Virus record (IMG/VR): IMGVR_UViG_3300022821_000773
Span: 1-23,779 of that record
Source: a virus
Length of the DNA stretch: 23,779 nt
Strand: one strand, 5' to 3'
The position numbers were made by a program, and so were the translations under genes. Position 1 is the first letter of the stretch. Each line of letters begins with the position of its first letter. Positions 694 through 21,390 of the stretch are shown here, in pieces. Below the pieces are notes generated by a model that did not search any database, was not told the DNA's origin, and saw only the letters and a program-made list of their open reading frames with translations.

Positions 694-710
694 TTTTATA
701 AAACAATAGA

Positions 711-3155
711 ATGGCTAAGGATCAATTAACAATTGCTCTTTGTATGATTGCAAAGGATAATGCAGACGTAATTTCACGAGTACTAGATTCAACGGAAAAG
801 GTGTTTGACGCCTATTATTTACAAGACACAGGGTCAACAGACCAAACAGTAGAAGTATTTGAGAAGTGGTGTAAGAAGAACAAGAAACAGTTTAAAACCT
901 CAAAGAGATTCGTAGGCAAGAGTTATAAGTATGTAGAGATAGACGGAAAGAAAGTATTAGGAGACTTTGCTAAAGCTAGAAACAACAGTTTCGATATGGC
1001 TAAGAAGTCAGGACACGATTTTGCCTTCTGGTTAGACACAGACGATATTCTCAAAGGAGCAAGAAACATTCCTCAACTTATCAAGAACATGGACAAGGAT
1101 GGGATACACAACGCTATCATGACTTACGTATACGCTAAAGGGCCTGGAGGATTAAGAGCAGTAACCCAAAAGAGAGAACGTATCATTGATATTAGACTAA
1201 AGGGTAAATGGGCAAACAGAGTACATGAAAACTATCAGATAAAAGGGGAGCATAAAGTAACAGACGTTCCAGAGGGTAGTGTGATAGTAGAACATTTAAG
1301 GACACCATTTGAATCAATCAATACGGGAAGAAGAAACCACCTCATTATGCTACAACAGCTTAAAGAAGAGGGTATAAAGAACTTTGACGACAACATGCTA
1401 CACAACCTAGCCTTTGACCATTGGGAGAGAGCAGAACACAAAGAGGCTATTAAATACTACGAGATAATACTAGAAGAAAGAAAAGACAAGTACCCAATAG
1501 AGACATTATTCAAGGTTATTATTAATACAGGTAAGTCTTACTTGGAATTAGGGGACATAGAGAAGGCTATCATATACGGATACAGAGCAAAGAAACTAGA
1601 CAGAAACACTCCAGAACCTTACTTACTATTAGCACAGTGTTTTTCAATTCAAGGAGAGTGGGAGGATACAATCAGACTTGCAAAACAATCACTTGAAGTT
1701 AAGGTACGAAACACAATAGCACCCGTGAACGAGATGGAGATTCACTTGCTACCTAGGAAGCTCTTAGAACACGCTTACATGCAGGTAGGTATGATGAAGG
1801 AAGCTAAGGCCATGTCAGACGAGATAGTAAAGATTTCACCAATGGCTATTAATAAATCCACTAGAGGACAGATAGACTTAGAGATTAAGAGAAAGAAAGC
1901 TATTCAGGGTATTGGATCGTTAGTCAGGTATATACAAGACACCAACGACTATCCTATGCTAGACAGAGTACATACAGCAATACCACTAGCACTTAAGGAA
2001 GATGATTCAGTACGAGCCTTTATACAAGAAATACAAGCAGACTATAAGAGAAAGACCCGCCATGTGAAATTTGAAGGGTCTAAGAACATTATCCTATACG
2101 CAGGGCCTCATTATGAGCCTTGGGACGGTAACGCAGATAAAGAAAAGGGTATTGGAGGCAGTGAAGGAATGACCATACAATTATCCAGAGAATTAGCAGC
2201 CTTAGGTAATAAGGTAACTATCTACGGAGAACCAGGAGAATCTATAGGCAAAGAAATAGACGGAGTGTTGTATGAACACCACAGTAAGTGGAAGCCTGAA
2301 ATGAAGTGTGATGTATTTATCTCACTAAGAAACCCAGGTATCTTTGCTAAGGTAATAGCCGCTACTAAACAATACTTATGGTTACACGACACAGAGTATG
2401 GAGACCATTTAGAACCTGTACACTTCTATACACCTAATAAGACTATTATACTAAGCGATTCACACAAACAGATTATTAAAGCCAATCATAATATAGAAGA
2501 CGACAGTATATTCTGGCAAACAAGGAACGCTGTTAATAAGTTTGCAGTCGAGTATGGGGATAAGAACGCTGAAGAAAGAAACCCCTACCAAATGATATAC
2601 GCAAGTAGTTACGACAGGGGATTAGACAATCTGTTAGCAATGTGGCCTACAATCAAAGAAGCAATACCAGAGGCTACACTAAAGATCTTTTACGGGTGGA
2701 ATACTTATGATGCTATGATGGAAAGAAGAGTTAACACACCACAGGGAGACCAAATGAAAGCACACAAGAGCAGTGTATTAGAAACCATCGCAGGACTTGA
2801 GGGAGTACAAGAGCTAGGTAGAGTAACTCAGAATGAACTGTATAAAGAGTTTGCGGAGAGTTCAATATGGTTATACCCTACTACCTTTTACGAGATAAGT
2901 TGTATTAACGCTATGACAGCACAAGCAATGGGAGCCGTACCAGTATGTACACCAGAAGCAGCACTTAAGGAAACAGTAAGCAGTAAACACGGAGTTAAGG
3001 TAGAGTTATCCGAAATGACTGACGCTGTTATACACTTACTAAGCAATCAAGAAGAATTAGAGGCTAAACGTAAACCTATGATGAAATGGGCAAGAAAGCA
3101 ATATGATATAGTAGCATTAGCAAAGGATTGGGATAAATTGTTTAACGAGGACTAA
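711..3155 (+). CDS. Three-part glycosyltransferase: GT2 domain, TPR segment, GT4 domain
   Basis: This 814-aa protein appears to fuse two glycosyltransferases. Residues about 6-200 match a GT2 (GT-A) fold: LTIALCMIAKDNADVISRVL, then LQDTGSTDQT at 38-46 and a metal-binding-like DTDD at 109-112. Residues about 230-390 are helical repeats of TPR type (EAIKYYEIILEERKD; SYLELGDIEKAI; PYLLLAQCFSIQGEWEDTI). Residues about 455-810 resemble GT4 (GT-B): GGSEG at 482-486, YASSYDRGLDNLL near 630-642, and EISCINAMTAQAMGAVPV at 728-745 where GT4 enzymes bind the donor nucleotide. No signal peptide or membrane helix is seen, so it is cytoplasmic. Its C-terminal half is related to the 11918-12922 protein. It is the first gene of the cassette. 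Donor and acceptor are unknown. Confidence 0.85.
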   Translation: MAKDQLTIALCMIAKDNADVISRVLDSTEKVFDAYYLQDTGSTDQTVEVFEKWCKKNKKQFKTSKRFVGKSYKYVEIDGKKVLGDFAKARNNSFDMAKKSGHDFAFWLDTDDILKGARNIPQLIKNMDKDGIHNAIMTYVYAKGPGGLRAVTQKRERIIDIRLKGKWANRVHENYQIKGEHKVTDVPEGSVIVEHLRTPFESINTGRRNHLIMLQQLKEEGIKNFDDNMLHNLAFDHWERAEHKEAIKYYEIILEERKDKYPIETLFKVIINTGKSYLELGDIEKAIIYGYRAKKLDRNTPEPYLLLAQCFSIQGEWEDTIRLAKQSLEVKVRNTIAPVNEMEIHLLPRKLLEHAYMQVGMMKEAKAMSDEIVKISPMAINKSTRGQIDLEIKRKKAIQGIGSLVRYIQDTNDYPMLDRVHTAIPLALKEDDSVRAFIQEIQADYKRKTRHVKFEGSKNIILYAGPHYEPWDGNADKEKGIGGSEGMTIQLSRELAALGNKVTIYGEPGESIGKEIDGVLYEHHSKWKPEMKCDVFISLRNPGIFAKVIAATKQYLWLHDTEYGDHLEPVHFYTPNKTIILSDSHKQIIKANHNIEDDSIFWQTRNAVNKFAVEYGDKNAEERNPYQMIYASSYDRGLDNLLAMWPTIKEAIPEATLKIFYGWNTYDAMMERRVNTPQGDQMKAHKSSVLETIAGLEGVQELGRVTQNELYKEFAESSIWLYPTTFYEISCINAMTAQAMGAVPVCTPEAALKETVSSKHGVKVELSEMTDAVIHLLSNQEELEAKRKPMMKWARKQYDIVALAKDWDKLFNED

Positions 3156-3157
3156 GA

Positions 3158-3856
3158 ATGAAGATTAAGGCACTGCTCCCTGGAGTGTTAGACACACAGG
3201 AACAAAAGGATATGACCAAGAGGGCTTTAAACAGCTTAGTATCATCACACGACCTAAAGATAACGGAAGACTATAAGAAGTATAAGAACAAAGTAGCCGC
3301 AGTATGGAATGTATTTCTTAAGGATAAAGTGGGTACAGAGTACGACTACCTACTAATAACAGCCAACGATGTAGAACACGACCCTAAGTGTATAGACTTC
3401 ATGGTAAGGTGTGCTCAAGACAACCCTAAAGCAGGTATTATATCGTGCAAGGTAACCAGAGACTATAGTGAGTTCAAGAAGAAGAAGGGTAAACGAAGGT
3501 ACACTAAAACGTTAACAGAGAACGAGCCTAAAGACCCTGCAACCTTCCTAATGCCATGGGGTGTTATAGAAGACATAGGGTTTGCAGACGAGCAGTTCCC
3601 TTGTGAGTTTGTTGAAAGAGACCTTATATACAGAGCTAAACTAGCAGGTTACGATTGGATACAGCCTGATGTAGTATTAGAATACCACCCTCCTTACTCT
3701 GGCACGATAGGCAACCCAATAGAAAGGTTACAAATAGCCTACCAGAAGTATGTAGCCAAATTTGGAGGTGACGCTAACTTTGAGATTTTCAAGTATCCGT
3801 ACAACGATATAAATTTATCATACTTTCATAATGAAGAAGATGCTTCACCTAGCTAA
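3158..3856 (+). CDS. GT2-like glycosyltransferase
   Basis: A 232-aa protein beginning two bases after the previous stop. YDYLLITANDVEHDPKCIDF (62-81) looks like the GT-A strand carrying the DxD-type metal site (NDVEHD at 70-75). FLMPWGVIEDIGFADEQF followed by FVERDLIYRAKLAGYD resembles the acceptor-side region of rhamnosyltransferase-like GT2 enzymes, in which a final E-x-D-hydrophobic motif is typical. The usual N-terminal nucleotide-binding strand is short and atypical, so this could be a reduced or specialised transferase. It overlaps the next gene by 26 bases. Cytoplasmic by sequence; donor unknown. Confidence 0.7.
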   Translation: MKIKALLPGVLDTQEQKDMTKRALNSLVSSHDLKITEDYKKYKNKVAAVWNVFLKDKVGTEYDYLLITANDVEHDPKCIDFMVRCAQDNPKAGIISCKVTRDYSEFKKKKGKRRYTKTLTENEPKDPATFLMPWGVIEDIGFADEQFPCEFVERDLIYRAKLAGYDWIQPDVVLEYHPPYSGTIGNPIERLQIAYQKYVAKFGGDANFEIFKYPYNDINLSYFHNEEDASPS

Positions 3857-4421
3857 TGGGACAATTTACCTCCCAGATTTTTGTAATATTGATATAGAGA
3901 CCCCAGACGCACACTTAGCCATTAACAGACCTGATCTAGTAAAGGTTAATAAGACTACATTAGAGAACTACTATAAGGACGATGTACAAAGGGATGACTT
4001 TATGTCAGGCAGACTACAACATAAGGAAGTGGTTTGTGATATGTTTGCAGATATTAGAGAGTTACCTTTTAGACCAAGGTCGGTATCTGGCATACTAGCA
4101 GTACAGGTGTTTGAACACTTTTCATTCCAAGAGGGCAAAGACTTACTTAAATACTGGTATAAACTACTTAAGAAGGGTGCGGTACTACACTTAGATGTTC
4201 CAGACCTAGAGGGTACAGTAGAATTATATAAAGACGACCCTAAATGGGCAACAAGATTACTCTATGGGAGTCAAAAGAATGAGTATGGTATACATAAAGC
4301 AATGTACAATAAAGACACATTAAGAGAATTACTAGAAGAAATAGGATTTAAGAGAATAAGATACTTACCTAATATACACAATTACCCAGGGTTTGGGATA
4401 ACAGGAATAAAAGTAGAATGA
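3831..4421 (+). CDS. SAM-methyltransferase-like protein (COG4627-like)
   Basis: A 196-aa protein. The layout fits the class I methyltransferase type often found in sugar clusters: LHLANGTIYLPDFCNIDI at the N-terminus, ADIRELPFRPRSVSGILAVQ (73-92), FEHF (94-97), then LLKYWYKLLKKGAVLHLDVPD. The usual motif I (LNLGCG) reads LHLANG, so the SAM loop has lost its glycine-cysteine-glycine core, and binding may be altered. ATG 3831 gives a 26-base overlap with the previous gene; ATG 3843 (MLHLANG) is an equally good start and fits the family better. Probable role is methylation of a sugar or glycan, by context. Confidence 0.7.
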   Translation: MKKMLHLANGTIYLPDFCNIDIETPDAHLAINRPDLVKVNKTTLENYYKDDVQRDDFMSGRLQHKEVVCDMFADIRELPFRPRSVSGILAVQVFEHFSFQEGKDLLKYWYKLLKKGAVLHLDVPDLEGTVELYKDDPKWATRLLYGSQKNEYGIHKAMYNKDTLRELLEEIGFKRIRYLPNIHNYPGFGITGIKVE

Positions 4422-5284
4422 TTATATCAATAGTAGGACAAGAAGAGGGATACGGTAACATGACCACATGGGTGGCTAAGAGTTTTAGTAGATTAGGCCA
4501 TATGGTTCACCATGTAGACAGGAACAAATTCTTCATACCAGAAGACACTCAAGTAGTTATATTCGTAGACTGTTCCGAAGACTATTCAGATAAAATAGGT
4601 AAAGTAACACAACCTACAGTGTTCTGGAGTATGGATGCTCACATGCCAGGAGGTCTTGAGAGGAGCTTAAACATAGCTAGAAAGGCTGATATGGTGTTTA
4701 GTAGTAATTATGAGCATGGTGTTAAATTACTTCGTAAATTCGGAGTGGAAAGTCATTTACTTCCTATTACTTATATGGACTCTTACGCACAACCTATTCT
4801 TTATAAAGGAGCAGTTAGTACTAAGTACGATGTGGCTATGATAGGACACGCCAACAGTAATGAGAGAGTACAGTTATGGGAGTTATTAAAAGATTATAAA
4901 TCCTTCACAGGTATAGCAGAGACAGAAGAAGATTACAGAGGGGTAATGCACGGTGCTAAAATAGTAGTTAATCAACCAACAGAACCTTGGGATAACATAC
5001 TCAACAACAGATTCTTTGAAGCAATGGGGTTTGGGTGTTTATTACTACAGAAGAGATTAGACACAGACCTTATAGAGAAGCTTGGGTTTGAGAATGGTAA
5101 ACACTTCATATATTGGACAGACTTTGACGACCTTAAAGAGAAACTAGACCTAGCATTAAAGAACCCTAAAGAGACCAATAAGATTGTAGCATCAGGAAAT
5201 GTGGCTGTACGAAAGTACTCAATGGATATGCAAGTAGCTAAGATGGAGACCTTGATACTGTCTAAGTTTTGGGATAGAATATAG
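4418..5284 (+). CDS. CgeB-like glycosyltransferase (GT-B fold)
   Basis: A 288-aa protein overlapping the previous stop as ATGA. The N-terminal half has a Rossmann-like start (MIISIVGQEEGYGNMTTWVA) and PTVFWSMDAHMPGG (66-79), typical of CgeB/DUF3880-type proteins. DMVFSSNYEHGVKLLRKFGV and YDVAMIGHANSNER follow, as expected at the start of the second domain. NNRFFEAMGFGCLLL (196-210) is the donor-binding E-x-x-x-x-G region of the Glyco_trans_1_2 type. Length fits a compact family member. It probably transfers a sugar from a nucleotide donor in the cytoplasm. CgeB proteins decorate spore and surface proteins elsewhere, so a protein acceptor is possible, but this is inference. Confidence 0.75.
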   Translation: MIISIVGQEEGYGNMTTWVAKSFSRLGHMVHHVDRNKFFIPEDTQVVIFVDCSEDYSDKIGKVTQPTVFWSMDAHMPGGLERSLNIARKADMVFSSNYEHGVKLLRKFGVESHLLPITYMDSYAQPILYKGAVSTKYDVAMIGHANSNERVQLWELLKDYKSFTGIAETEEDYRGVMHGAKIVVNQPTEPWDNILNNRFFEAMGFGCLLLQKRLDTDLIEKLGFENGKHFIYWTDFDDLKEKLDLALKNPKETNKIVASGNVAVRKYSMDMQVAKMETLILSKFWDRI

Positions 5285-5289
5285 GTAGA

Positions 5290-7323
5290 ATGACAAATAG
5301 AATGACTATAGAACCTTCAGCTCCTGTACACGGAGAGGAAGAAAAACAGGCTATTGTAAGAGCCTCAGAGACTTGGGGTAGAAACCACGGTGAACACTCT
5401 ATAGCTTTCGAGAATCAATTATCAGAATATTTAGACGCTAAACATGTAACCCTAGTTAATAGTGGATCAAGTGCTAATTTCGTTGCTCTTATGGCTATGA
5501 CCTCAGAAATGGTTCCAGAGAACAGACGTTTAAATCAAGGTGATGAGGTTATCACCGCAGCAATGGGCTTCCCAACAACAGTGAGTCCTATTATATACGC
5601 TGGGGCTGTGCCTGTATTTGTAGACGTAGAAAAAGGAGCTGGCAATATCAATCCAGAACAAGTCAGAGAAATGATAACAGACAAGACTAAGATTATTATG
5701 GTTGCTCACACACTGGGTAATCCTTTCAATATAGACGAGATAAGAGATATATGTGAAGAACATGAACTAACGCTCATAGAAGATAATTGTTTTACTGCAG
5801 AGACATCAATTCTAACAATAGATGGATATATACCAATAGCAGAGATTGAAGTTGGGGATATGGTTATGACATCACAAGGATATAAACCAGTTAAAGATAC
5901 TAAAATGACTGGTAAGAAATCAGTTATTCAGAAACTAGGCTTAGTTGGGACACCAGATCACCCAATAATTACCCCAAAAGGAGTTAAGACACTTGACAAA
6001 CTCAGTACATCTGATAAGATATATGTATGGAACCAGAAATTATACAATATAGAGGAAAAGATTATAAAAGATATCCCGATTCTAAGAGAAGACACCTTGC
6101 TGTGTACTATTGGCATGGGGGTGGAAAGAAAAGAGATTCACTACATAGACAGGTATACAGGGACTCCATTGGAGAAATCCCTAAAGGCTTCTCTATACAC
6201 CATGAGGATGGTAATCCCTTTAACAATGATATTGGCAATCTTAAGCTCATGGAAACTGGTAAACACCATAGTGAGCACACAAATCTACCAGAAAACATTA
6301 AAAAGGTTTTGGTTAATCTGGAAAAGGCTAGAGAGGGTGCGAAAGAATGGCATGGCAGTGATGAAGGTAGGGAGTGGCACAAGAAACATGGAAAAGAGAT
6401 GTGGAAGAACAAAGCACAATATAATACATCGTGTATCTTTTGCGGAAAAACTTATAAAACTTATTTCCCAACAAGAGCAAAATATTGTAGTAAGAAATGC
6501 GGGTGGACTTCAAGACGTATACAACTTAACAGTAGAGGAGAAGCATGAGTTTGTTGCTAATAATATTTTAGTTCATAATTGTGATGCTTTAGGTTCTGAG
6601 TGGAACGGCAAGAGAACAGGAACGTTTGGTCATATAGGAACATCTAGCTTCTACCCTGCACACCATATAAGCACAGGAGAGGGTGGGGCTGTCTATACTA
6701 ACAACGCTATTCTAAGTAGGGCCATTAAATCAATGGTTAGCTGGGGGAGGGACTGCTTTTGTGGCCCTGCTCAAGATAATGTGTGTGGACATAGGTACGA
6801 CCAACAGCACGGGGATTTACCACACGGGTACGACCACAAGAATACATACACTAACTTTGGGTTTAACTTCAAAATGGTAGATATACAAGCTGCTATAGGA
6901 GTAGAACAAATGAAACGATTAGATGGATTCACTATAGCAAGAAGATATAATCATGAATATATAAAAGAAGTGTTTGAACAGTATAAGGATTGGTTTGTTA
7001 TGCCAGAGGTTTATGAGGGTGCTAATCCAAGTTGGTTTGGGTATGTAGTAGAGTTGTCAGAAGCAGCACCATTCACGAAGAGAGAGTTGGAACTATACCT
7101 AGACGAAGCAGGCATAAAAAGTAGGGCTTTGTTTTGTGGTAATATAACTAAACAACCAGTACTAAGCAGTGGTAGGTTCGAGTATAAAGCACACCCTGAC
7201 CTATCAGTAAGTGATAGAATGATGGAGAACGCTTTCTGGATAGGAGTACACCCAGCAATAGGAGAACAAGAGAGAGAGTATATGAAAGAGCAAATAACTA
7301 ATTTTATGAGTGAATACTTATGA
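5290..7323 (+). CDS. rfbH: NDP-4-keto-6-deoxyhexose 3-dehydrase (RfbH/E1 type), interrupted by an intein
   Basis: The 677-aa precursor belongs to the DegT/DnrJ/EryC1 fold. Removing intein residues 167-430 leaves a 413-aa enzyme of normal length. It matches RfbH/E1, which uses PMP and a [2Fe-2S] cluster to remove the C3 hydroxyl of a CDP-4-keto-6-deoxyhexose. The catalytic lysine of related aminotransferases is replaced by histidine in SFYPAHHISTGEGG (H458; spliced H194). Cluster ligands C431, C489, C491 and C499 follow C-X57-C-X1-C-X7-C, the spacing I know for E1. WGRDCFCG and DLPHGYDHK are further RfbH signatures. The E1 partner reductase (E3) is not in the window. ATG 5290 lies five bases after the previous stop; ATG 5302 is an alternative. 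The gene overlaps the next as ATGA. Confidence 0.9.
   Translation: MTNRMTIEPSAPVHGEEEKQAIVRASETWGRNHGEHSIAFENQLSEYLDAKHVTLVNSGSSANFVALMAMTSEMVPENRRLNQGDEVITAAMGFPTTVSPIIYAGAVPVFVDVEKGAGNINPEQVREMITDKTKIIMVAHTLGNPFNIDEIRDICEEHELTLIEDNCFTAETSILTIDGYIPIAEIEVGDMVMTSQGYKPVKDTKMTGKKSVIQKLGLVGTPDHPIITPKGVKTLDKLSTSDKIYVWNQKLYNIEEKIIKDIPILREDTLLCTIGMGVERKEIHYIDRYTGTPLEKSLKASLYTMRMVIPLTMILAILSSWKLVNTIVSTQIYQKTLKRFWLIWKRLERVRKNGMAVMKVGSGTRNMEKRCGRTKHNIIHRVSFAEKLIKLISQQEQNIVVRNAGGLQDVYNLTVEEKHEFVANNILVHNCDALGSEWNGKRTGTFGHIGTSSFYPAHHISTGEGGAVYTNNAILSRAIKSMVSWGRDCFCGPAQDNVCGHRYDQQHGDLPHGYDHKNTYTNFGFNFKMVDIQAAIGVEQMKRLDGFTIARRYNHEYIKEVFEQYKDWFVMPEVYEGANPSWFGYVVELSEAAPFTKRELELYLDEAGIKSRALFCGNITKQPVLSSGRFEYKAHPDLSVSDRMMENAFWIGVHPAIGEQEREYMKEQITNFMSEYL
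5788..6579 (+). mobile_element. Intein in the RfbH-like dehydrase (264 aa), with an out-of-frame nested HNH gene
   Basis: The intein covers residues 167-430. Block A is CFTAETSILTIDG (C167 is the N-terminal nucleophile). Block B is LVGTPDHPIITPKG with T221-x-x-H224. Block F/G is VYNLTVEEKHEFVANN followed by H429-N430 and extein C431. All residues required for standard class 1 splicing are present. It is inserted in IEDN/CDALG, the conserved cofactor-binding motif of the family, as expected for an intein that must splice for its host enzyme to work. Residues about 246-420, between the splicing halves, have no family likeness in this frame (for example MRMVIPLTMILAILSSWKLV), because the DNA there encodes an HNH endonuclease in another frame. 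Splicing of this linker-bearing form is predicted, not shown. Confidence 0.9.
6027..6548 (+). CDS. HNH homing endonuclease nested out of frame inside the intein
   Basis: A 173-aa protein in the -1 frame relative to the dehydrase-intein frame. The N-terminus EIIQYRGKDYKRYPDSKRRH is typical of HNH homing endonucleases of phages. The HNH core is GFSIHHEDGNPFNNDIGNLK (54-73; H58, H59, N66, N67, N71), followed by HHSEH at 80-84. C136, C139, C154 and C158 form a likely C-terminal zinc-binding site. An in-frame stop at 6015-6017 lies just upstream, so ATG 6027 is the natural start. The stop at 6546-6548 falls within intein block F coding sequence. The protein looks complete at both ends, so it is a separate gene rather than an intein domain. 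No Shine-Dalgarno is visible. It probably cuts intein-less dehydrase alleles to spread the element. Confidence 0.88.
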   Translation: MEPEIIQYRGKDYKRYPDSKRRHLAVYYWHGGGKKRDSLHRQVYRDSIGEIPKGFSIHHEDGNPFNNDIGNLKLMETGKHHSEHTNLPENIKKVLVNLEKAREGAKEWHGSDEGREWHKKHGKEMWKNKAQYNTSCIFCGKTYKTYFPTRAKYCSKKCGWTSRRIQLNSRGEA

Positions 7324-8294
7324 AAACGTTGATCACAGGTTCTGCAGGATTCGTAGGGAGTCATGTATTAGAGTATCTATTAGAGAATACAGACTGGGAT
7401 ATTGTATGTTTAGTTAAAATGGCAAGGGCAGGAAACTTGAATAGGATACAAGAGATATTAAATCCTGAATTTGAGAAAAGAGTTAAGATAGTTAGACACG
7501 ACCTCTTAGACCCATTAGACAGTATTCATAGACACATAGGGGAAGTAGACTACATAGTTCATATGGCTGCTGACTCTCATGTAGACGATTCAATTAACAG
7601 ACCAAGAGAAGTATTCATTAACAACGCAGACAGTACAGTCAATATGCTTAACTACGCTAAAGACCACCAACCTAACCTTAAGAGATTCTTATACTACTCT
7701 ACAGATGAAGTGTATGGGGACGCTTCTAATGACTACGCATTCGTTGAGGGAGACGCTCTTATGCCCCGCAACCCTTATTCAGCAGGTAAAGCTTCAGGAG
7801 AAATGGCTTGTCATGCTTGGAGAGAAACATACGGAGTGCCTGTATTGATTATGAGAACAATGAACATGTACGGGGAAAGACAAGACCCTGAGAAGATGAT
7901 ACCCAAAACGATTAAGACTATACTGGCAGGTGAGAAGATGACTATACATAAACACGGTAAAGAGTTAGGTACAAGACATTGGTTATACGCTAAGAACAGT
8001 GCAGACGCTGTCCTGTTTATGTTAAAGGGAGACTTTGATGTATTGAAGGTTAACGTACCAGGAGAGATAGAACTAGACAACCTTGAAATAGCTCAGACTA
8101 CAGCGAGACTAATGGACATGAAATTAAAGCATAAGTTTATACAAGCAGAAACAATTAGACCTGGTTACGATAGAAGATACTCAGTAGATGGAACACTCAT
8201 AGCAGACTTAGGGTGGACACCTCCGTTTAACTTTGTGGAGTCTTTAGAGAAAACAATTAAATTTAGTATGGAGAATCCAGAATGGGTAATATAA
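7320..8294 (+). CDS. Nucleotide-sugar 4,6-dehydratase, RmlB-like extended SDR
   Basis: A 324-aa protein. GSAGFVGSH (7-15) is the Rossmann NAD-binding loop, HMAADSHVDDSI (81-92) is typical of nucleotide-sugar dehydratases, STDEVYG (127-133) holds the T-D-E catalytic triad residues, and Y153-SAG-K157 is the SDR active-site pair. TDE with MAADSHVDDSI is the pattern of dTDP-glucose 4,6-dehydratase (RmlB), not the usual CDP-glucose enzyme (RfbG). It would produce the 4-keto-6-deoxy sugar on which the upstream 3-dehydrase acts. Length is close to the family norm of 320-360. It overlaps the preceding gene as ATGA and the next by 13 bases. Nucleotide preference is uncertain. Confidence 0.85.
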   Translation: MKTLITGSAGFVGSHVLEYLLENTDWDIVCLVKMARAGNLNRIQEILNPEFEKRVKIVRHDLLDPLDSIHRHIGEVDYIVHMAADSHVDDSINRPREVFINNADSTVNMLNYAKDHQPNLKRFLYYSTDEVYGDASNDYAFVEGDALMPRNPYSAGKASGEMACHAWRETYGVPVLIMRTMNMYGERQDPEKMIPKTIKTILAGEKMTIHKHGKELGTRHWLYAKNSADAVLFMLKGDFDVLKVNVPGEIELDNLEIAQTTARLMDMKLKHKFIQAETIRPGYDRRYSVDGTLIADLGWTPPFNFVESLEKTIKFSMENPEWVI

Positions 8295-9028
8295 TAATAA
8301 CTGGAGGGACAGGGTTTGTAGGAGGTCATGTATGGAAGTTTCTAGGTAAGTTAGGATACAACATAGAAAACCTATCCTCTAAGCAATTCATGAATGAAGA
8401 TTGGAAGCTATTAGACAAAGACGTAGAAGTAGTTATACATTGTGCATGGCCTAAGAAAGACCTACACTCAACAGAACACTTAGAGTTTGCAGAAATGTCT
8501 TGTAACTTCTTTAACGAATGTCAAAAGAGAGGAATAAGAGTTATTAATATAGGAAGTAGTTCAGAGTACGGAGTTAAGTACGAGCCTATGCATGAGGAAA
8601 TGATGTGCGAACCTCACACTGCCTACGGTATAGCTAAGTTATCCACAACGTTATACGCAAAGAAGCTAGGGTTTAATACTCTAAGAATCTTTAGTGCGTG
8701 GGGTAAGGGTGGAAGTAACTTCAAGTCCTTGTTCAAAGATGTGGATAAATGGGGGCATCATAAAGATGTTAGACATTATATACCAGTAGAAGATATTGCT
8801 AAGGCAGTGGAAAGAATGTTACATGCTAAACACTTATACGGAGAGATAATCAACTTGGCAGGTGAATATATGGTACAGAGTAATATGCGTGTTTCTATAA
8901 TTGATTCATCTGATATAGAGGCATCTAAGTTAGAGAACTCGAAGTGGAATACATATCCTCAGAATCAATACGAGAGATCATACTGGACTGCAGATCTAAC
9001 TAAAATGAAAAAACTATTAAACCTATGA
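8282..9028 (+). CDS. NAD-dependent epimerase/dehydratase family protein (extended SDR), probable 4-ketoreductase
   Basis: A 248-aa SDR. GGTGFVGGH (8-16) binds the nucleotide, SSSEYG (92-97) supplies the catalytic serine region, and Y115-GIA-K119 is the active-site pair. It is shorter than most extended SDRs (about 300 aa), mainly in the substrate domain. Placed after a 4,6-dehydratase and a 3-dehydrase, the simplest role is reduction of the 4-keto group, as in abequose-type synthases. An epimerase role is an alternative. The start overlaps the previous gene by 13 bases, and the stop overlaps the next start as ATGA. Confidence 0.8.
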   Translation: MGNIIITGGTGFVGGHVWKFLGKLGYNIENLSSKQFMNEDWKLLDKDVEVVIHCAWPKKDLHSTEHLEFAEMSCNFFNECQKRGIRVINIGSSSEYGVKYEPMHEEMMCEPHTAYGIAKLSTTLYAKKLGFNTLRIFSAWGKGGSNFKSLFKDVDKWGHHKDVRHYIPVEDIAKAVERMLHAKHLYGEIINLAGEYMVQSNMRVSIIDSSDIEASKLENSKWNTYPQNQYERSYWTADLTKMKKLLNL

Positions 9029-9444
9029 AGAAATTAAAGATGAACACGGTACTGGTAACAGATTATGTATTACAACACGGTAGACTGCATTGGCAATTGA
9101 TCAATGGTAAGGTTGGTACATGTATATCAGGTATTTCAGAAGACTATCCAACACTTGCTATAGATTACCCACCAGAATACAACAATGGATACAAAGACAT
9201 GGTCCCTTATGAAGCTACCTTTGAAGGAGATATATTATATGTTAATGAGACTACAACACTTAATGAATTGGAAGTACTTGTTAAATCGTTGGTTAGTGAA
9301 GCATCATCCATTAATATAGACTTCACGAAAGGGTTTGACTTCCATGAACAAGTGAGATTTAGTATAACAGGTCTAGAAGATAATTTCGTGATTGATAAAT
9401 ACCTAGATAAGCACCTATCTAAATTGAATAAAGAGAACCTATGA
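9025..9444 (+). CDS. Hypothetical protein of the sugar cassette
   Basis: A 139-aa soluble acidic protein with no signal peptide, membrane helix or cysteine cluster. It looks beta-rich in the first 80 residues (VLVTDYVLQHGRLHWQLING; YEATFEGDILYVNETTT) and mixed alpha/beta later (LNELEVLVKSLVSEASSINI). I do not recognise a family. It overlaps both neighbours as ATGA, so it is translationally coupled between the SDR and the transketolase N-subunit and probably serves the same pathway. It could be a small isomerase-like or accessory protein, but nothing in the sequence shows this. Confidence 0.7.
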   Translation: MKKLKMNTVLVTDYVLQHGRLHWQLINGKVGTCISGISEDYPTLAIDYPPEYNNGYKDMVPYEATFEGDILYVNETTTLNELEVLVKSLVSEASSINIDFTKGFDFHEQVRFSITGLEDNFVIDKYLDKHLSKLNKENL

Positions 9445-10166
9445 AACTAAACAACTTTAAAATCAAAGACAGAATAATGAAGATCGGTAGGGATAAGGGA
9501 GTGGGTCATATAGGAAGTGCATTATCCTGTGTGGACGTACTCTGTACTATCTACAATACAAGGAAAGACCCTATTGTAATACTATCTAAGGGTCATGGAG
9601 CATTAGCACAATACGTTATACTAAACGAATTAGGTAAACTACCAGACGACAAGCTAGAGAGCTACGATCAAGACGGGGGGTTAAATGCACACAGTACCTT
9701 AATGCCTGAGTATGGAGTGTATGCAAGTACAGGAAGCTTAGGACATGGATTAGCAATAGGTATGGGGTACGCAATAGCACACCCTAAAAAAGAAGTATGG
9801 GTTGTTATGGGAGACGGTGAGTGTGATGAGGGTAGTGTTATGGAAGCCTTAAAGATAATACAGAAGCTAGATATAAAAAACATATACCCTATTGTAGATG
9901 TTAATGGATCACAAGGATTCAGTAAAACTAACGAGGAGATGTTGCCACAAGGAGTTAGGGCTTACTATTCAGAAAAGGGTCAGGATTGGGATAACGAAGG
10001 AGAAATTTCATCTCACTATACAGGAGTAGACAAGGACGTTTATAAGAAGTGGAAGCCTAAAGCTAAACAAACAGAGAAGGCTAGACTATACAAGGAAAAG
10101 CAATACAGAAAGCAGTATGAGAAGGCTAAATTGAATGAAAAGAAGAATGAGAAGAACAGTAACTAA
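9441..10166 (+). CDS. Transketolase-like N-terminal subunit (TPP-binding), compact form
   Basis: A 241-aa protein with the pyrophosphate-binding half of transketolase: GHIGSALSCVDVL (22-34, active-site His23), SKGH (49-52), GSLGHGLAIGMG (98-109), and the TPP motif GDGECDEG (124-131) with N155 about thirty residues on (IVDVNGSQGF). After residue 170 the usual segment of roughly sixty residues appears missing. The chain jumps to YYSEKGQDWDNEGEISSHY, which resembles the conserved KGKG-x-x-F-x-E-N-x-x-x-H region. The last 45 residues are a lysine-rich, probably helical or disordered tail absent from ordinary transketolases. It overlaps the next gene, which encodes the other half. Together they may transfer a two-carbon ketol unit, perhaps to a keto-sugar. 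Confidence 0.85.
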   Translation: MKLNNFKIKDRIMKIGRDKGVGHIGSALSCVDVLCTIYNTRKDPIVILSKGHGALAQYVILNELGKLPDDKLESYDQDGGLNAHSTLMPEYGVYASTGSLGHGLAIGMGYAIAHPKKEVWVVMGDGECDEGSVMEALKIIQKLDIKNIYPIVDVNGSQGFSKTNEEMLPQGVRAYYSEKGQDWDNEGEISSHYTGVDKDVYKKWKPKAKQTEKARLYKEKQYRKQYEKAKLNEKKNEKNSN

Positions 10167-10722
10167 AACACTACTAGAGATACTAGACAAAGACACTTAC
10201 TTTCTAACAGCAGACGTAGGGTTTGGAGTGTTAGAACCTTTACAGAAGAAAATGAAGGATAATTTTATTAATGTAGGAGTAGCAGAACAGAGTATGATAG
10301 GTATAGCCTCAGGATTAGCACTCTCAGGTAAGAAGGTGTTCACTTATACGATGTGTTCTTTCTACCTTAGAGCGTTGGAACAGATTAAACTAGACCTATG
10401 TTATCAGGACGTACCAGTCACCATGATAGGGTGTGGTACTCAGTTTGACTACGAAGAGCTTGGTACAACACACTTTGCACTAGAGGATGAAGTAATAATG
10501 AATGCACTGTATAATATAGATGTATACACTCCTAAGACCAAGGGGGAGTTGGTTAAACTTTTAAAGGAAGAACCAAAGAGACCTCGTTATATTAGAATCG
10601 GTAGGTTTGATAAGAACAACGATTTCGAGATCGACAAGAAGCAACTAAAAAAATATCCAAAAGAAGGGGGTAAGTTAAATTATTTTAAGAACAAGTATGG
10701 ATCTAGGAAAAATAGTAAATGA
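10135..10722 (+). CDS. Transketolase-like pyrimidine-binding subunit, lacking the C-terminal domain
   Basis: A 195-aa protein matching the second transketolase domain: FLTADVGFGVLEPLQKK, FINVGVAEQSMIGIASGLAL (44-63, where Glu51 would activate the TPP aminopyrimidine ring), YTMCSFYLRALEQIKLDLCY, and THFALED (112-118). Split C-subunits normally run to about 310 residues with a third domain. Here the protein ends after a short lysine-rich tail, so that domain is absent, as in some minimal TPP enzymes. ATG 10135 overlaps the previous gene by 32 bases. ATG 10147 (MRRTVTKTLLEIL) fits the family start better. It should form a heteromer with the 9441 product. Confidence 0.85.
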   Translation: MKRRMRRTVTKTLLEILDKDTYFLTADVGFGVLEPLQKKMKDNFINVGVAEQSMIGIASGLALSGKKVFTYTMCSFYLRALEQIKLDLCYQDVPVTMIGCGTQFDYEELGTTHFALEDEVIMNALYNIDVYTPKTKGELVKLLKEEPKRPRYIRIGRFDKNNDFEIDKKQLKKYPKEGGKLNYFKNKYGSRKNSK

Positions 10723-11287
10723 TGCCCTCACAATCAATGAGGACAAGAGGATGCTTAAAGAAGAGTTATTATTAATAGCAGAGAGAATGAATGACCTCTA
10801 CAAGGGGGGAAATACATTAGAGATAGGAGCATACAAGGGAATGACCAGTTATGTATTCGCAAGTATCTTAAAGGGTACAAAGAGTAAGAACAAGCATTAT
10901 ATAGTAGATATCTTTGACAAAGAGTCAGGAGCTATAGAAGCAGGTACTTGGTCATACGATGTACACACAAAGGAAATGATGGAAGAGAATCTAAAGGAAG
11001 TTATAGAGCATGTAGACATAACTAGAAGTGAATCATTAGGATGCGATGGACTGTCAGTAGTATTAGATAACAAATTCGATTACTGCTTTATCGATGGAGA
11101 CCACAGATACCCAGTAGTATTCATGGAACTTATGATGGTTGATTTAGTAACTGACCATATCTTCCTACACGACTACGGACATCAAGGAGTAACCGATTCA
11201 GTAGACAGATTCTGCGACCTCAAAGGATATACCTTTAAGAAGATGGCTAAAGACGGTAGTTATGGTTTAATTGAAATATTTAAATAA
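10697..11287 (+). CDS. Class I SAM-dependent methyltransferase (Methyltransf_24-like)
   Basis: A 196-aa protein. TLEIGAYKGMTSYVFASIL (40-58) is SAM motif I with acidic Glu42 and glycine G44. HYIVDIFDK (motif II) follows, then FDYCFIDGDHRYPVVFMEL and IFLHDYG, the characteristic I-D-G-x-H and H-D-Y/F of Methyltransf_24 and cephalosporin-hydroxylase-like proteins. These commonly O-methylate sugars in glycan clusters. It overlaps the upstream gene by 26 bases and touches the next as TAATG. The substrate is unknown; a hydroxyl of the cassette's sugar is the natural candidate. Confidence 0.8.
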   Translation: MDLGKIVNDALTINEDKRMLKEELLLIAERMNDLYKGGNTLEIGAYKGMTSYVFASILKGTKSKNKHYIVDIFDKESGAIEAGTWSYDVHTKEMMEENLKEVIEHVDITRSESLGCDGLSVVLDNKFDYCFIDGDHRYPVVFMELMMVDLVTDHIFLHDYGHQGVTDSVDRFCDLKGYTFKKMAKDGSYGLIEIFK

Positions 11288-11901
11288 TGGATACACAAAA
11301 CACTAAACTAAAAGAAGTAGAAGCTAATAGAAAGTACTACAGTAAATCAGACGGCAATTTCATGACAGAAGAGGCTGTACTACACTCACACAAAGTATTA
11401 GACAGAGTAGACTGGGTAAGGGAGAAGGTTCACCAAGTAGATAGTAGAGACCATTTAGATATTGGCTGTAAGGATGGGTACTTATGTTTAACCCTACAAT
11501 CAGAGGGTATTACATGTGTTGGAGTAGACCCAAGTAAAGACTCAATAGCTAAGGCACAGGAACGTGCAGTCAAATACGGATTGAAAGCAGGGTTTGTTCA
11601 AGCATTTGTGGAAGATGTAAAGGAAAACATTAAAGCCGATACAGTAAGCATGTTAGAAGTATTAGAACATGTTGCAGATCCTAAGAAGGTTATGAGAAAG
11701 CTTTCTAAGCTAGGAAGGATAATAATGATATCTACACCTGATGCTGATGGCAGACACGGACACGATGACGCTGATAGAAACCAAGAACATGTAAGGCTCT
11801 ATACTAAAAAGGAATTAGAGAGGTTTGTTAAAAACTACGGAGAGATATTAGAAAGTACAGTTAGAGACGAGCAGTTATGTATTATGTGGAAGCCTAGATA
11901 A
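11287..11901 (+). CDS. Class I SAM-dependent methyltransferase (Methyltransf_11/23-like)
   Basis: A 204-aa protein. HLDIGCKDGYLCLTLQ is SAM motif I, CVGVDPSKDSIAKAQERA is motif II with the acidic residue after beta2, VSMLEVLEHVADP is the post-motif IV signature of UbiG-like enzymes, and IIMISTPD closes the core. KAGFVQAFVEDVKEN would contact the adenine. Full-length for a minimal methyltransferase without an extra substrate domain. It starts in TAATG overlap with the previous methyltransferase, so the two are translated together. It may act on sugar or on a glycan-bearing protein. The substrate cannot be read from the sequence. Confidence 0.82.
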   Translation: MDTQNTKLKEVEANRKYYSKSDGNFMTEEAVLHSHKVLDRVDWVREKVHQVDSRDHLDIGCKDGYLCLTLQSEGITCVGVDPSKDSIAKAQERAVKYGLKAGFVQAFVEDVKENIKADTVSMLEVLEHVADPKKVMRKLSKLGRIIMISTPDADGRHGHDDADRNQEHVRLYTKKELERFVKNYGEILESTVRDEQLCIMWKPR

Positions 11902-11917
11902 TTTAATCAATAACAAC

Positions 11918-12922
11918 ATGATAAAGAGAATATCAATATATACTAACCTAGTAAGTACTAATTGGACTGCTAGGGATTTAGAAACAGGTATAGGAGGAAG
12001 TGAAGAAAAATTAATAGAGTTTGCAAGGGAGATGGCTAAGAAGAAAGACTACGAAGTATACGTATACCATAACGGTGAGCATGGTACATTCGATGGAGTG
12101 TTCTACAAGGGTCATAAAGACTTCAGAGCATGGTTAAGGAGTGACGTGTTTATATCCTTTAAGGCTAAACATATACTAGATAAGTCTATCAACGCACCTA
12201 TTAAGATACATTGGTCTATGGAAGTAGAGCCTGAGTGGTTGCAACACGAACTAGATTCAGTAGATAAAGTATTAACAATAAGCAAATTCCACAAGTCCCA
12301 AATGAAACCACAGACTGATAAGATAGATTCTGATTACTTATGGGTAGACACAGACAGACTAGACAGAAATAAGGCAGAACAAGAAGAAGGTACAATGCTA
12401 TATTGCTCAAGTTTCGATAGAGGATTAGAAGAAGTGTTAGACAAATGGCTAGAGGTTAAGAAGAAACTAGGACTTAAGAAGTTATACATTACATACGGAT
12501 GGGAGTTTATGGACGAAATGGTTAAAAGAGACCCAGCACTTGCTAAATGGAAAGAGAAAATGACAGAACTACTTAAACAGGACGGGGTTGAGCTTGTTGG
12601 TAGACTTAGTAACGATAAAATGTGTGAAATGTACTGGAAGAGTGAATACTGGGTACTACCTCTTAACAACCCACAGAGCGAGTTGTTTTGTTTAAATGCT
12701 ATCAAGGCTCAGTATTGTGGTTCTATACCCGTTGTGAGACGTGTAGGGGCCTTACAAGAGACAGTAAATCAGTTCATAGACTGGGATAAACTATTAGGAG
12801 AGAAAGTAGGGCAAGACAATTTCACTAAGAAGAGTATTAAAGAGAATAAAGACCACGCATCTAAGTTTGGAATGAAGGAAGCAATACAAAGATGGAACGA
12901 AAGATTCGAGAGGAAAGAATAG
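11918..12922 (+). CDS. GT4-like glycosyltransferase, paralogue of the C-terminal half of the 711 gene product
   Basis: A 334-aa GT-B protein. GIGGSEEKLIEFAREMAKK (24-42) is the acceptor-side glycine loop. YCSSFDRGLEEVLDKW (162-177) starts the donor domain, and ITYGWEFMDEM follows. SELFCLNAIKAQYCGSIPVV (254-273) is the E-x7-type nucleotide-sugar site. The same landmarks occur in the same order in the 711-3155 protein (GGSEG, YASSYDRGLDNLL, YGWNTYDAMM, EISCINAMTAQAMGAVPV), so the two share ancestry. The usual N-terminal domain is shortened. The leader is A/T-rich without Shine-Dalgarno. Donor and acceptor unknown. Confidence 0.8.
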   Translation: MIKRISIYTNLVSTNWTARDLETGIGGSEEKLIEFAREMAKKKDYEVYVYHNGEHGTFDGVFYKGHKDFRAWLRSDVFISFKAKHILDKSINAPIKIHWSMEVEPEWLQHELDSVDKVLTISKFHKSQMKPQTDKIDSDYLWVDTDRLDRNKAEQEEGTMLYCSSFDRGLEEVLDKWLEVKKKLGLKKLYITYGWEFMDEMVKRDPALAKWKEKMTELLKQDGVELVGRLSNDKMCEMYWKSEYWVLPLNNPQSELFCLNAIKAQYCGSIPVVRRVGALQETVNQFIDWDKLLGEKVGQDNFTKKSIKENKDHASKFGMKEAIQRWNERFERKE

Positions 12923-19110: not shown

Positions 19111-19461
19111 ATGGATAAATCTAAGATACCAACAGTTAAATTCGAGGTTGGAACAACAGAAAAGTTTGAAGTAGAAGCTTATAAATGGCTTACACAAGAA
19201 GAGGATGATCGCTATAATGATATTCTCATGGGCAATAAGGAGTTTGAGTTTGATGTCGAAGCTAATAAGGACAATGAAAAGAGTAGTACGCCAAAGACAA
19301 CAATGTCTATTTCTATGTCTAAACTAGCAGACTCTAGGAAGTTCTTAATAGAAACCATGTGTGTGAATCTTAAATGGGAAGACTTCAATGTCTTACAACA
19401 ACCAGTGAGGGAAGAAATACAACAGAAACTCGAAGCAGTAAGGACACCAGGAAAAAAATAA
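19111..19461 (+). CDS. Tail assembly chaperone, short (0-frame) product
   Basis: A 116-aa acidic protein, equivalent by position to lambda gpG. It lies between tail tube and tape measure genes and ends in a frameshift site, which together are diagnostic of tail assembly chaperones. It starts beta-rich (TVKFEVGTTEKFEVEAYKWL), has a polar middle, and ends in a helical region (SRKFLIETMCVNLKWEDFNV). It should coat the tape measure before tube assembly and be absent from the virion. The last codons are GGA AAA AAA TAA. Confidence 0.8.
   Translation: MDKSKIPTVKFEVGTTEKFEVEAYKWLTQEEDDRYNDILMGNKEFEFDVEANKDNEKSSTPKTTMSISMSKLADSRKFLIETMCVNLKWEDFNVLQQPVREEIQQKLEAVRTPGKK
19452..19458 (+). promoter_or_regulatory. 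Programmed -1 frameshift site A_AAA_AAA
   Basis: Seven A residues are read in the 0 frame as A AAA AAA, directly followed by stop TAA (19459-19461). A -1 slip continues as ATA ATA CCC CTT. A candidate stimulatory stem, CCCCTT (19464-19469) with GAGGGG (19495-19500), begins five bases after the heptamer, a usual spacing. The 0-frame and -1 frame match the two chaperone ORFs exactly. Confidence 0.85.
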
Positions 19462-19670
19462 TACCCCTTAGGGAGTTTATTAAATTCTGGGAAAGAGGGG
19501 AGAAGACTAAAAACAAGGAACTTACTGAATTTATTAATATGGTAAGGATTCTGGAGATGTTTAAGGGTTGGGATTACTATACATACAAGGCTCAACCAGT
19601 ACACTTTTTAAATAATCTCTTTGGGTATTTAGATTCTGAAAGTCAATACCGAAAGAAGAAAGAACAATAA
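19458..19670 (+). CDS. Frameshift extension of the tail assembly chaperone (gpGT-like T domain)
   Basis: After a -1 slip at 19452-19458 translation adds 70 residues (starting IIPLREFIKFW, ending YRKKKEQ) to the 116-aa chaperone, giving a 186-aa fusion. The extension is helical and basic, with aromatic residues (FKGWDYYTYKAQPVHFLNNL), like the T domain of lambda gpGT, which binds tail tube subunits. It ends one base before the tape measure ATG. A start at ATG 19374 in this frame would give an unrelated arginine-rich head (MGRLQCLTTTSEGRN), so an independent start is unlikely. Confidence 0.8.
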   Translation: MIPLREFIKFWERGEKTKNKELTEFINMVRILEMFKGWDYYTYKAQPVHFLNNLFGYLDSESQYRKKKEQ

Positions 19671-19671
19671 T

Positions 19672-21390
19672 ATGCCACAAGAAACGGTGCAAGTACAAAT
19701 AAAATTAACAGGAGTAGACCAGGTCAATAGAGACATGGGTAAGCTACAGTCAGGATTAGGTGGGAAGTTTTCTAAAATAGCTGGGAAAGTTGCAACAGTC
19801 GCTAAGGTGGCTGCTGGTGCTATTCTGGCGGTAGGTGCTGCCTCTGTAGCAGTTGGTACAATGGCGGTTAAAAGTGCAGCACAGCTCGAACAGCAACGTA
19901 TTGGATTCATCACACTACTTGGAAGTGCAGAAGCCGCTGATAAAGCATTAGAAAGAATCAAAAAAGACGCAAAAGCAACACCATTTGAATTACCAGGACT
20001 CATAGCAGGAAATAAGAGACTTATATCTACAGGCATAGAAGCAGAACGTGCTGCTGATATAATTCTTTCATTAGGAGATGCTATCTCTGCAACAGGAGGT
20101 TCACAACCAGAATTTGATAGAATGATAACTAACCTACAGCAGATTAAAAACGTTGGTAGAGCATCTGCAATCGATATCAAACAGTTTGGGTTTGCAGGTA
20201 TAAACATCGTCGGTTTACTAGCGGATTCTATGGAAAAGACTACGGCTGAAGTACAGGCATTAGTGACAGCAGGTAAAATAGGTTTTCCAGAGGTAGAACA
20301 GGCACTTAAGAATGCCTCTAGTGAAGGCGGAGACTTCTTTAATGCAATGCAAGATCAGAGTCAAACGCTTAATGGAATACTTTCTAATGTTAAAGACACT
20401 ATAAATATACTCTTGGCAGACTTTGCTACAGAGAGTGGTTTGTTAGATGCCGTGAAAGTGGTAGCACAAGGACTGCTTTCATTCTTAGAAAAGGCAGCAA
20501 GTGGGGCTACAGGTGCAGTAGAAAATATGAAGATAAAGTTTAACGAGTTTATGAACTCAGAGTTTATGAAAAATGCAAGGCTGTTTTTTAGTGCAATATT
20601 TGATGGAATGAAATCAGCAGTCGAGGGCTTTATGCTTGTGTGGAATCCTATTTGGGATACAATGATTGAAATATGGCAAAACGTTCTTAGACCAATGTTT
20701 ATAGAGATTAAGAGGTTGATAATAGAAATGTTTGGTGAAAGTGTAGCTGAGGGAGAAGAGTTTAAAAGGATGATGGAAATCATAGGTGCTTCTATTGCAA
20801 TTGTAGTTGGGGGTATTGTATTGGCAATCGCTGGACTTATATTGATATTCGGAACGTTGGTTAAATCATCACTCGAGAGGACAGCGAAGGTTAAGGCGAC
20901 ATTCGAAAACTTAAAAGAAGGCATCAGGAAAGTTGTATTTGCAGTTGGGTGGTATTTTAAGGTATTGCTACCTCAAGCTGTAGCTACTGGAGTAAACAAG
21001 ATAAAAGCTTTCTGGATGTCTATACCAGCTACAATAAAGAGGGTTGCTAATTCTATAATATTCTATATGGAAAGAGCTGTAAATTCAGTTATAAGTGGAT
21101 TTAATGGTGTTGCGGAAAGTATTCCAGGAGCACCTACATTCCCACTTGTAAAATTCCCAAGATTTGAATCTGGAGGAATTGTAGGAGGAAGTTCTACATC
21201 TGGAGACAAGGTTTTGGCTAGAGTTAATAGCGGTGAAATGATACTTAATAAGGCTCAGCAGTCTTCATTATTCAGAATGTTACAGGGGTCTGGAGGTCAG
21301 ACAGTCAATATGGGTGATATGAACTTCTCACAACAAGGTGCTCCAATGCAACAACAGAACTCGTTTATTAATTTATTAACTAATATATAA
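19672..21390 (+). CDS. Tape measure protein
   Basis: A 572-aa protein. It has an N-terminal domain (QVQIKLTGVDQVNRDMGKLQ), a hydrophobic alanine/glycine/valine segment at 40-67, and then the tape measure N-domain pattern (LEQQRIGFITLLGSAEAADKALERIKKDA; IDIKQFGFAGINIVGLLADSM). A second strong hydrophobic segment lies at 370-397. The C-terminus FESGGIVGGSSTSGDKVLARVNSGEMILNK is typical of tape measures. The protein sets tail length and later may enter the host membrane. At about 0.15 nm per residue it implies a tail near 85 nm, short for a siphovirus. The stop overlaps the next start as TAATG. Confidence 0.9.
   Translation: MPQETVQVQIKLTGVDQVNRDMGKLQSGLGGKFSKIAGKVATVAKVAAGAILAVGAASVAVGTMAVKSAAQLEQQRIGFITLLGSAEAADKALERIKKDAKATPFELPGLIAGNKRLISTGIEAERAADIILSLGDAISATGGSQPEFDRMITNLQQIKNVGRASAIDIKQFGFAGINIVGLLADSMEKTTAEVQALVTAGKIGFPEVEQALKNASSEGGDFFNAMQDQSQTLNGILSNVKDTINILLADFATESGLLDAVKVVAQGLLSFLEKAASGATGAVENMKIKFNEFMNSEFMKNARLFFSAIFDGMKSAVEGFMLVWNPIWDTMIEIWQNVLRPMFIEIKRLIIEMFGESVAEGEEFKRMMEIIGASIAIVVGGIVLAIAGLILIFGTLVKSSLERTAKVKATFENLKEGIRKVVFAVGWYFKVLLPQAVATGVNKIKAFWMSIPATIKRVANSIIFYMERAVNSVISGFNGVAESIPGAPTFPLVKFPRFESGGIVGGSSTSGDKVLARVNSGEMILNKAQQSSLFRMLQGSGGQTVNMGDMNFSQQGAPMQQQNSFINLLTNI

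Follow-up and report, generated by a model that had tools for sequence, protein, structure and literature searches.

Putative class 1 inteins of phage genes with an HNH endonuclease gene overprinted in another reading frame

A stop-free open reading frame (ORF) of an IMG/VR virus record was found to carry a class 1 intein within which a complete HNH endonuclease gene is encoded in a different, likewise intact reading frame. The locus very probably represents a mobile intein that relies on a separate HNH gene for homing, with this gene being overprinted at the position occupied by an in-frame endonuclease domain in other inteins. As judged from sequence comparisons, the same double coding is found in about 190 distinct loci, most of which are from phages. 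The original prediction made from this DNA is thereby extended to a large family centred on the phage terminase large subunit (TerL), which uses both alternative frames and has split and free-standing relatives, with the member first noticed, located in rfbH, being the odd one out.

The window, i.e. the whole stretch of DNA analysed here, comprises 23,779 bases of the IMG/VR record with head and tail genes located on the right and sugar-nucleotide genes on the left. The host gene, the intein and the HNH gene all lie on the plus strand. The host ORF (positions 5290-7323) is one frame of 677 aa that encodes an intein-interrupted aminotransferase of the RfbH type (DegT/DnrJ/EryC1). The flanks of the insert, the N-extein at 5290-5787 and the C-extein at 6580-7323 with Cys+1 as its first residue, match RfbH (NCBIfam PRK15407, 1.1e-157; best stretch 425-675) and DegT (Pfam PF01041, 8.7e-80). 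An intein-free RfbH homologue of 64% identity, found in locus L088, reads LIEDN/CDCLGG at the insertion site and represents the empty rfbH site.

The insert matches Intein_splicing and Hint_2 of Pfam as well as the NCBIfam intein C-terminal model TIGR01443, and all residues of a class 1 intein were found (C1 at 5788, TPDH, and HN and C+1 at 6579/6580). Its N part (5788-6033; Hint_2, Intein_splicing) comprises Cys1, block A at 5788-5817 and block B at 5947-5967, which reads GTPDHPI with both the T and the H present. The C part (6517-6579; TIGR01443, Intein_splicing) comprises block F at 6517-6564 and block G, ILVHN, at 6565-6579. In the AF2 model the Hint parts mostly reach pLDDT values of 89-98 (89-98 for residues 1-90, 94-96 for the C part), compared with about 37-75, and largely 37-55, for the overprinted stretch at 6034-6516, and this loop between the Hint halves is predicted to be disordered. 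A Foldseek search with the intein model returned 32 PDB matches at E<=1e-3, mostly inteins and including the gp41-1, DnaB and RecA mini-inteins. A group I or group II intron was ruled out as the identity of the insert, since the Rfam search gave no match to either.

The HNH gene extends from ATG to TGA at 6027-6548 in the -1 frame of the intein and encodes 173 aa; its frame is closed by a TAA at 6015-6017 upstream and by the TGA at 6546-6548, which falls inside intein block F. The protein matches HNH_3 (Pfam PF13392, 3.6e-9, above the cut-off) and was modelled by AF2 with a pLDDT of 95.5. Like HNH_3 homing endonucleases it has an HNH core, IHHEDGNPFNN at 6195-6227, whose H, D and N columns are invariant in 28 nested homologues, and zinc-binding cysteines, a CxxC at 6432-6443 and a CxxxC at 6483-6500, all four of which are invariant. 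A PDB fold search with the HNH model gave weak matches, the best being I-HmuI (1u3e, E 0.047). ORFs, domains and blocks together confirm that a complete HNH gene lies out of frame inside the intein with both frames open, as had been predicted.

Throughout the overlap (6027-6548) the intein frame, which reads as an open linker through the HNH gene, contains no stop codon. When the HNH protein was held fixed and synonymous codons were drawn at window usage, 7.4 intein-frame stops were expected and each of the 20,000 simulations contained at least one (P <5e-5), while permutation of the HNH gene's own codons gave 4.1 expected stops and a probability of 4e-4 for zero. In the reverse test with the intein residues fixed, 7.9 stops were expected in the HNH frame and none was observed. 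Chance openness was rejected by three codon nulls. The dozen or so stops originally expected in the intein frame is too high an estimate, synonymous-codon nulls giving 4 to 7, yet zero stops remains improbable at P of about 4e-4 to <5e-5, and the conclusion drawn from the openness of this frame stands.

Overlapping ORFs were also noticed elsewhere in the window. Two out-of-frame ORFs at 19111-19461 and 19374-19670, directly upstream of a tape-measure-like gene (19672-21390), resemble a tail assembly chaperone pair; such pairs are often produced via programmed frameshifting. A transketolase-like enzyme appears as two overlapping ORFs at 9441-10166 and 10135-10722, which sit among sugar-nucleotide, glycosyltransferase and methyltransferase-like genes clustered at about 700-12900. 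This cluster perhaps represents a phage surface-glycan or nucleotide-sugar pathway.

Homologues of both window frames were searched by tblastn in phage genomes, where the same places in TerL of TJE1, Highwayman and a Rhodobacteraceae phage were matched in different frames; these loci consist of a continuous TerL ORF and an HNH ORF in another frame. Scans of IMG/VR for close relatives of the window intein or of the HNH alone found nothing, and an alignment-based IMG/VR scan yielded the 80 best HNH relatives. All but one of these lie out of frame inside inteins (79/80), nearly all in TerL. In 77 of the 80 the intein N and C blocks flank the HNH gene, which has one common offset (1), with zero stops over 270-368 codons. 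Two further loci, L034 and L049, are nested in the other frame and are open, with 15 and 17 stops expected, respectively. The single exception (L037) is a free-standing HNH gene immediately downstream of an uninterrupted terL; its contig also carries the beginning of an additional intein, at 4091-4213 within a head-morphogenesis-like gene.

After two more scans of viral sequences and one of bacterial and archaeal genomes, the set comprised 235 unique loci. Nesting at offset 1 (-1 frame) was found in 179 and at offset 2 in 14, all 193 with an open intein frame; the remainder are 21 loci that are split or have their intein halves in different frames, 19 without intein and 2 cut by contig ends. 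The -1 offset was rejected as a fixed rule because 14 loci use the other frame. Pfam searches of the N-exteins returned TerL families throughout and the DegT aminotransferase only in the window, some members being without a Pfam match. The homologue search, which had been proposed for metagenomes along with the original prediction, provided 193 nested loci with both frames open. Relatives with the HNH in frame with the intein, which were to have spoken against that prediction, number 0 of the 235 homologous loci. The other case named against it, relatives with stops in the intein frame, does occur, but in the form of split inteins.

These counts also bear on the origin of the locus by two compensating indels, introduced in sequencing or assembly, that moved an endonuclease domain out of its original frame. 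The window stems from a single metagenomic contig, and single frameshifts occur in such contigs, e.g. in L096. However, the same design is present in independent contigs from many metagenomes as well as in GenBank phages (TJE1, Highwayman, LS06-2018-MD07 and a gut phage), and an in-frame relative is missing from all 235 loci; the probability of an artefact is negligible, and for the family it is refuted. Locus L096 itself (a Prevotellaceae MAG, about 2930-2960), which was counted among the 21 split loci, resembles a nested copy whose intein N part is disrupted by one frameshift, and this frameshift looks like a sequencing error or recent damage.

Pooled over the offset-1 loci, the intein frame contains 0 stops vs 667 expected, whereas the third frame contains 18.9 per locus vs 18.0 expected. 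At offset 2 the intein frame likewise contains 0 stops vs 201 expected, with 8.6 per locus vs 7.3 expected in the other frame, and in free-standing and split control loci the stops in both frames match expectation. The stop-free frame is whichever frame carries the intein. Because the classes 'open' and 'stops' were defined by the stop count itself, an unconditioned figure is given: both intein blocks are present in 214 loci, and 193 of these are open, vs about 4% per locus expected at offset 1.

The selection acting on each frame was assessed in six close pairs. Differences concentrate at HNH codon position 3, which is intein codon position 2, and HNH amino-acid changes are far below expectation (each P below 0.002), indicating that the HNH is under purifying selection. 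Given the HNH constraint, intein-frame changes equal expectation in four of the six pairs and are fewer in two. In seven simulated pairs, which are not fully independent, about 13 intein-frame stops were expected conditionally and 0 were seen. The overprinted intein residues appear largely unconstrained, this frame being held mainly to the absence of stops, and the overlap is thus under dual constraint. Residue-level selection on the overprinted loop was rejected as a general feature, being absent in four of the six informative pairs and hinted at in two; some constraint of this kind may nevertheless exist, because two close pairs changed less in the intein frame than the conditional null. A comparison of selection per frame had been suggested, and the view behind it, an HNH gene out of frame inside an intein whose host frame is kept readable and whose linker is overprinted, is borne out by the relatives and these substitution patterns.

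Many inteins lose their endonuclease over time, and the HNH gene could accordingly be a decaying relic, the open intein frame being due to chance or short-lived. The catalytic and zinc residues of the HNH are, however, invariant across diverged members, purifying selection was found in all six pairs, the window HNH was modelled with high confidence, and the whole insert was recently transferred between two loci (L055 and L057), all of which makes decay very unlikely.

The same locus pair documents horizontal movement. The inserts of L055 and L057 are 98-100% identical, whereas their terL flanks are mostly about 55-70% identical and reach 85% beside the insert. Over the family, HNH distances correlate better with intein distances (0.32) than with extein distances (0.19). 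Intein and HNH by these measures move together between diverged TerL genes, and co-descent of the HNH with TerL, as a rejected alternative, is weak given the latter correlation. A DNA matrix of the TerL insertion site ranked the window site 1st of 22,951 positions, and 14th with the +1 codon masked. A jump of the element from terL into the rfbH gene of the window through likeness of the target site is plausible, the support for it being a short site match at one locus. Site-specific cleavage of the intein-free allele by the HNH is predicted, and the recent transfer of an insert between diverged TerL genes would be an indirect sign of it.

Splicing of the family members is predicted from their sequences. 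Conserved class 1 residues argue for it: C1 is kept in 96/98, T/SxxH of block B in 91/98 and the last Asn followed by C/S/T+1 in 97/98. The insert of the family breaks the TerL nuclease motif at a D/H-rich junction before CDAxRY, and that of the window breaks an active-site segment of the aminotransferase. As an alternative, the insert might never be spliced and the host enzymes might tolerate it, as was proposed for the ShiLan domain, where elements share the plan of an out-of-frame HNH and are devoid of splicing blocks (PMC11855218). That precedent and the merely predicted nature of splicing speak for this alternative; the retained splicing residues, the interruption of the host motifs and a confident Hint model speak against it, and we regard it as having little probability.

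With regard to the synthesis of the HNH protein, internal initiation is suggested by the sequences upstream of the HNH starts. In 173 offset-1 loci the median anti-Shine-Dalgarno pairing was -4.9 kcal/mol vs -2.2 at other ATGs of the overlap (p 2.4e-18), and pairing at or below -6 was found for 38% of the HNH starts vs 8% of the control ATGs. A Shine-Dalgarno site is missing at the HNH start of the window (-0.1 kcal/mol), as it is at many other genes there, and the HNH starts of the offset-2 loci (L034, L049, L139-L186) are without the signal typical of offset-1 loci. Programmed -1 frameshifting, by which ribosomes would pass from the intein frame into the HNH and produce an N-extein/intein-N/HNH fusion with no independent HNH start, would fit the absence of this site in the window and the commonest offset being exactly -1. 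A slippery X_XXY_YYZ heptamer is, however, present in the only workable stretch in just 7/68 loci, the HNH frame is closed <=6 codons upstream of the HNH in half of the loci, strong Shine-Dalgarno sites are found at HNH starts and 14 loci use the other frame. Frameshifting is consequently considered improbable, and translation of the HNH from its own start is the preferred reading.

Relatives of the HNH also occur outside of intact inteins. Close free-standing relatives beside terminase genes were found in phages PAE1, FBPa53, SN1, Shemara, Poludnitsa and BP10 and in an Exiguobacterium phage; in Brevundimonas phage Poludnitsa (L129, 2534-3002) the gene is unannotated and lies between terL and the portal gene. 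Split TerL inteins with an HNH of the same family between the halves were found in Vibrio phages 1.238 and 1.245, in Lactobacillus phage CL2 and in several metagenome loci (named split loci: L007, L103, L104, L106, L109, L131 and L212). TerL of the two Vibrio phages (L007 and L133) appears to hold one more intein, located upstream of the split one that the HNH overlaps. In phage CL2 (L131, 1670-2696) the annotated large terminase stops within the N part of an intein, and downstream of the HNH both the C part and the C-extein are unannotated; in this phage, a split intein appears to join the pieces of TerL.

Nested, split and free-standing states are interleaved on an unrooted HNH tree with at least 26 changes. 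The nearest relatives of the split locus L212 are nested loci, and the trees give no support for where the window HNH is placed. Entry of a free-standing HNH gene into a mini-intein is plausible, because free-standing relatives adjoin terL. In a broader scenario, to which we give slightly less than even odds, the overprinted inteins are a missing link from free-standing homing endonucleases to natural split inteins: a terL-adjacent HNH gene enters a mini-intein out of frame, host selection keeps both frames open for long with either alternative frame in use, stops in the host frame give rise to a split intein whose halves enclose the endonuclease, and the element jumps to unrelated genes with a similar target, such as rfbH.

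In the mechanism proposed, the host ORF would be translated through the insert as one precursor. Its two Hint halves would assemble with a long disordered loop between them, which is the HNH gene read out of frame, and the intein would then splice itself out. On the same mRNA, ribosomes would also initiate internally at the HNH start, in the family usually at an internal Shine-Dalgarno site, and produce the HNH enzyme, which would cut intein-free alleles, and repair would copy intein and HNH into them. Since the insert lies in the active site of a host protein that is required, host-frame stops would be eliminated, while the loop residues would be nearly free to follow the HNH code.

If so, about 500-650 bases of a widespread mobile intein class encode two proteins, one of which is merely a removable spacer, and some 190 natural replicates are available for studying gene overlaps where the main constraint on one frame is the need to remain open. 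Between blocks B and F, the intein loop would tolerate almost any sequence of 140 to 240 residues, which is useful for intein engineering, and a testable route to the origin of split inteins is offered. Moreover, the annotation of TerL and HNH is wrong or incomplete in many phage genomes, because the HNH is unannotated in the annotated nested examples.

The family shares with ordinary inteins the Hint splicing domain, the position of the endonuclease between blocks B and F and, as proposed here, mobility by homing. Ordinary inteins, however, hold the endonuclease as an in-frame domain, whereas here the HNH is found at offset 1 or 2 and never at 0 (0/235); as a gene of its own in a different frame, it yields a product separate from the intein protein. 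Fractured genes, reportedly described by Dassa and coworkers in 2009 as split inteins whose halves are separated by a free-standing endonuclease gene, are similar in having a separate gene between the intein N and C parts. They differ in that the window intein halves belong to a single ORF (5290-7323) that reads straight through the endonuclease gene, so that splicing would be in cis. The HNH_3 core is shared with I-HmuI, the best PDB match, and other HNH_3 homing endonucleases of phages, but I-HmuI is encoded in a group I intron and the window HNH in an intein, and the latter has C-terminal zinc-binding motifs. Mycobacteriophage inteins also use TerL as host but lie in its ATPase domain (Kelley et al. 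2016, PMC5050341), whereas the TerL members of the family described here lie in the C-terminal nuclease domain.

A full-text literature search brought up no intein described as having its endonuclease out of frame, which agrees with the original statement that no intein of such design had been described, and the double-coded loci apparently had not been recognised before as a class of intein. The closest known system is an out-of-frame HNH without an intein, namely the ShiLan domain and the Pacc40 insertion, in which the HNH lies in the open frame of a phage DNA methylase (Arsenault, Gosselin and Gogarten 2025, PMC11855218). An out-of-frame HNH in a phage host gene with an open host frame is common to these elements and the present family, as are a disjunct, homing-like distribution and similar free-standing HNH genes adjoining the host gene in relatives. 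For the ShiLan domain, its authors reported that intein or intron splicing elements are absent and inferred that the insertion is not removed (PMC11855218), whereas in the family described here intein blocks flank the HNH, which both starts and stops inside the intein.
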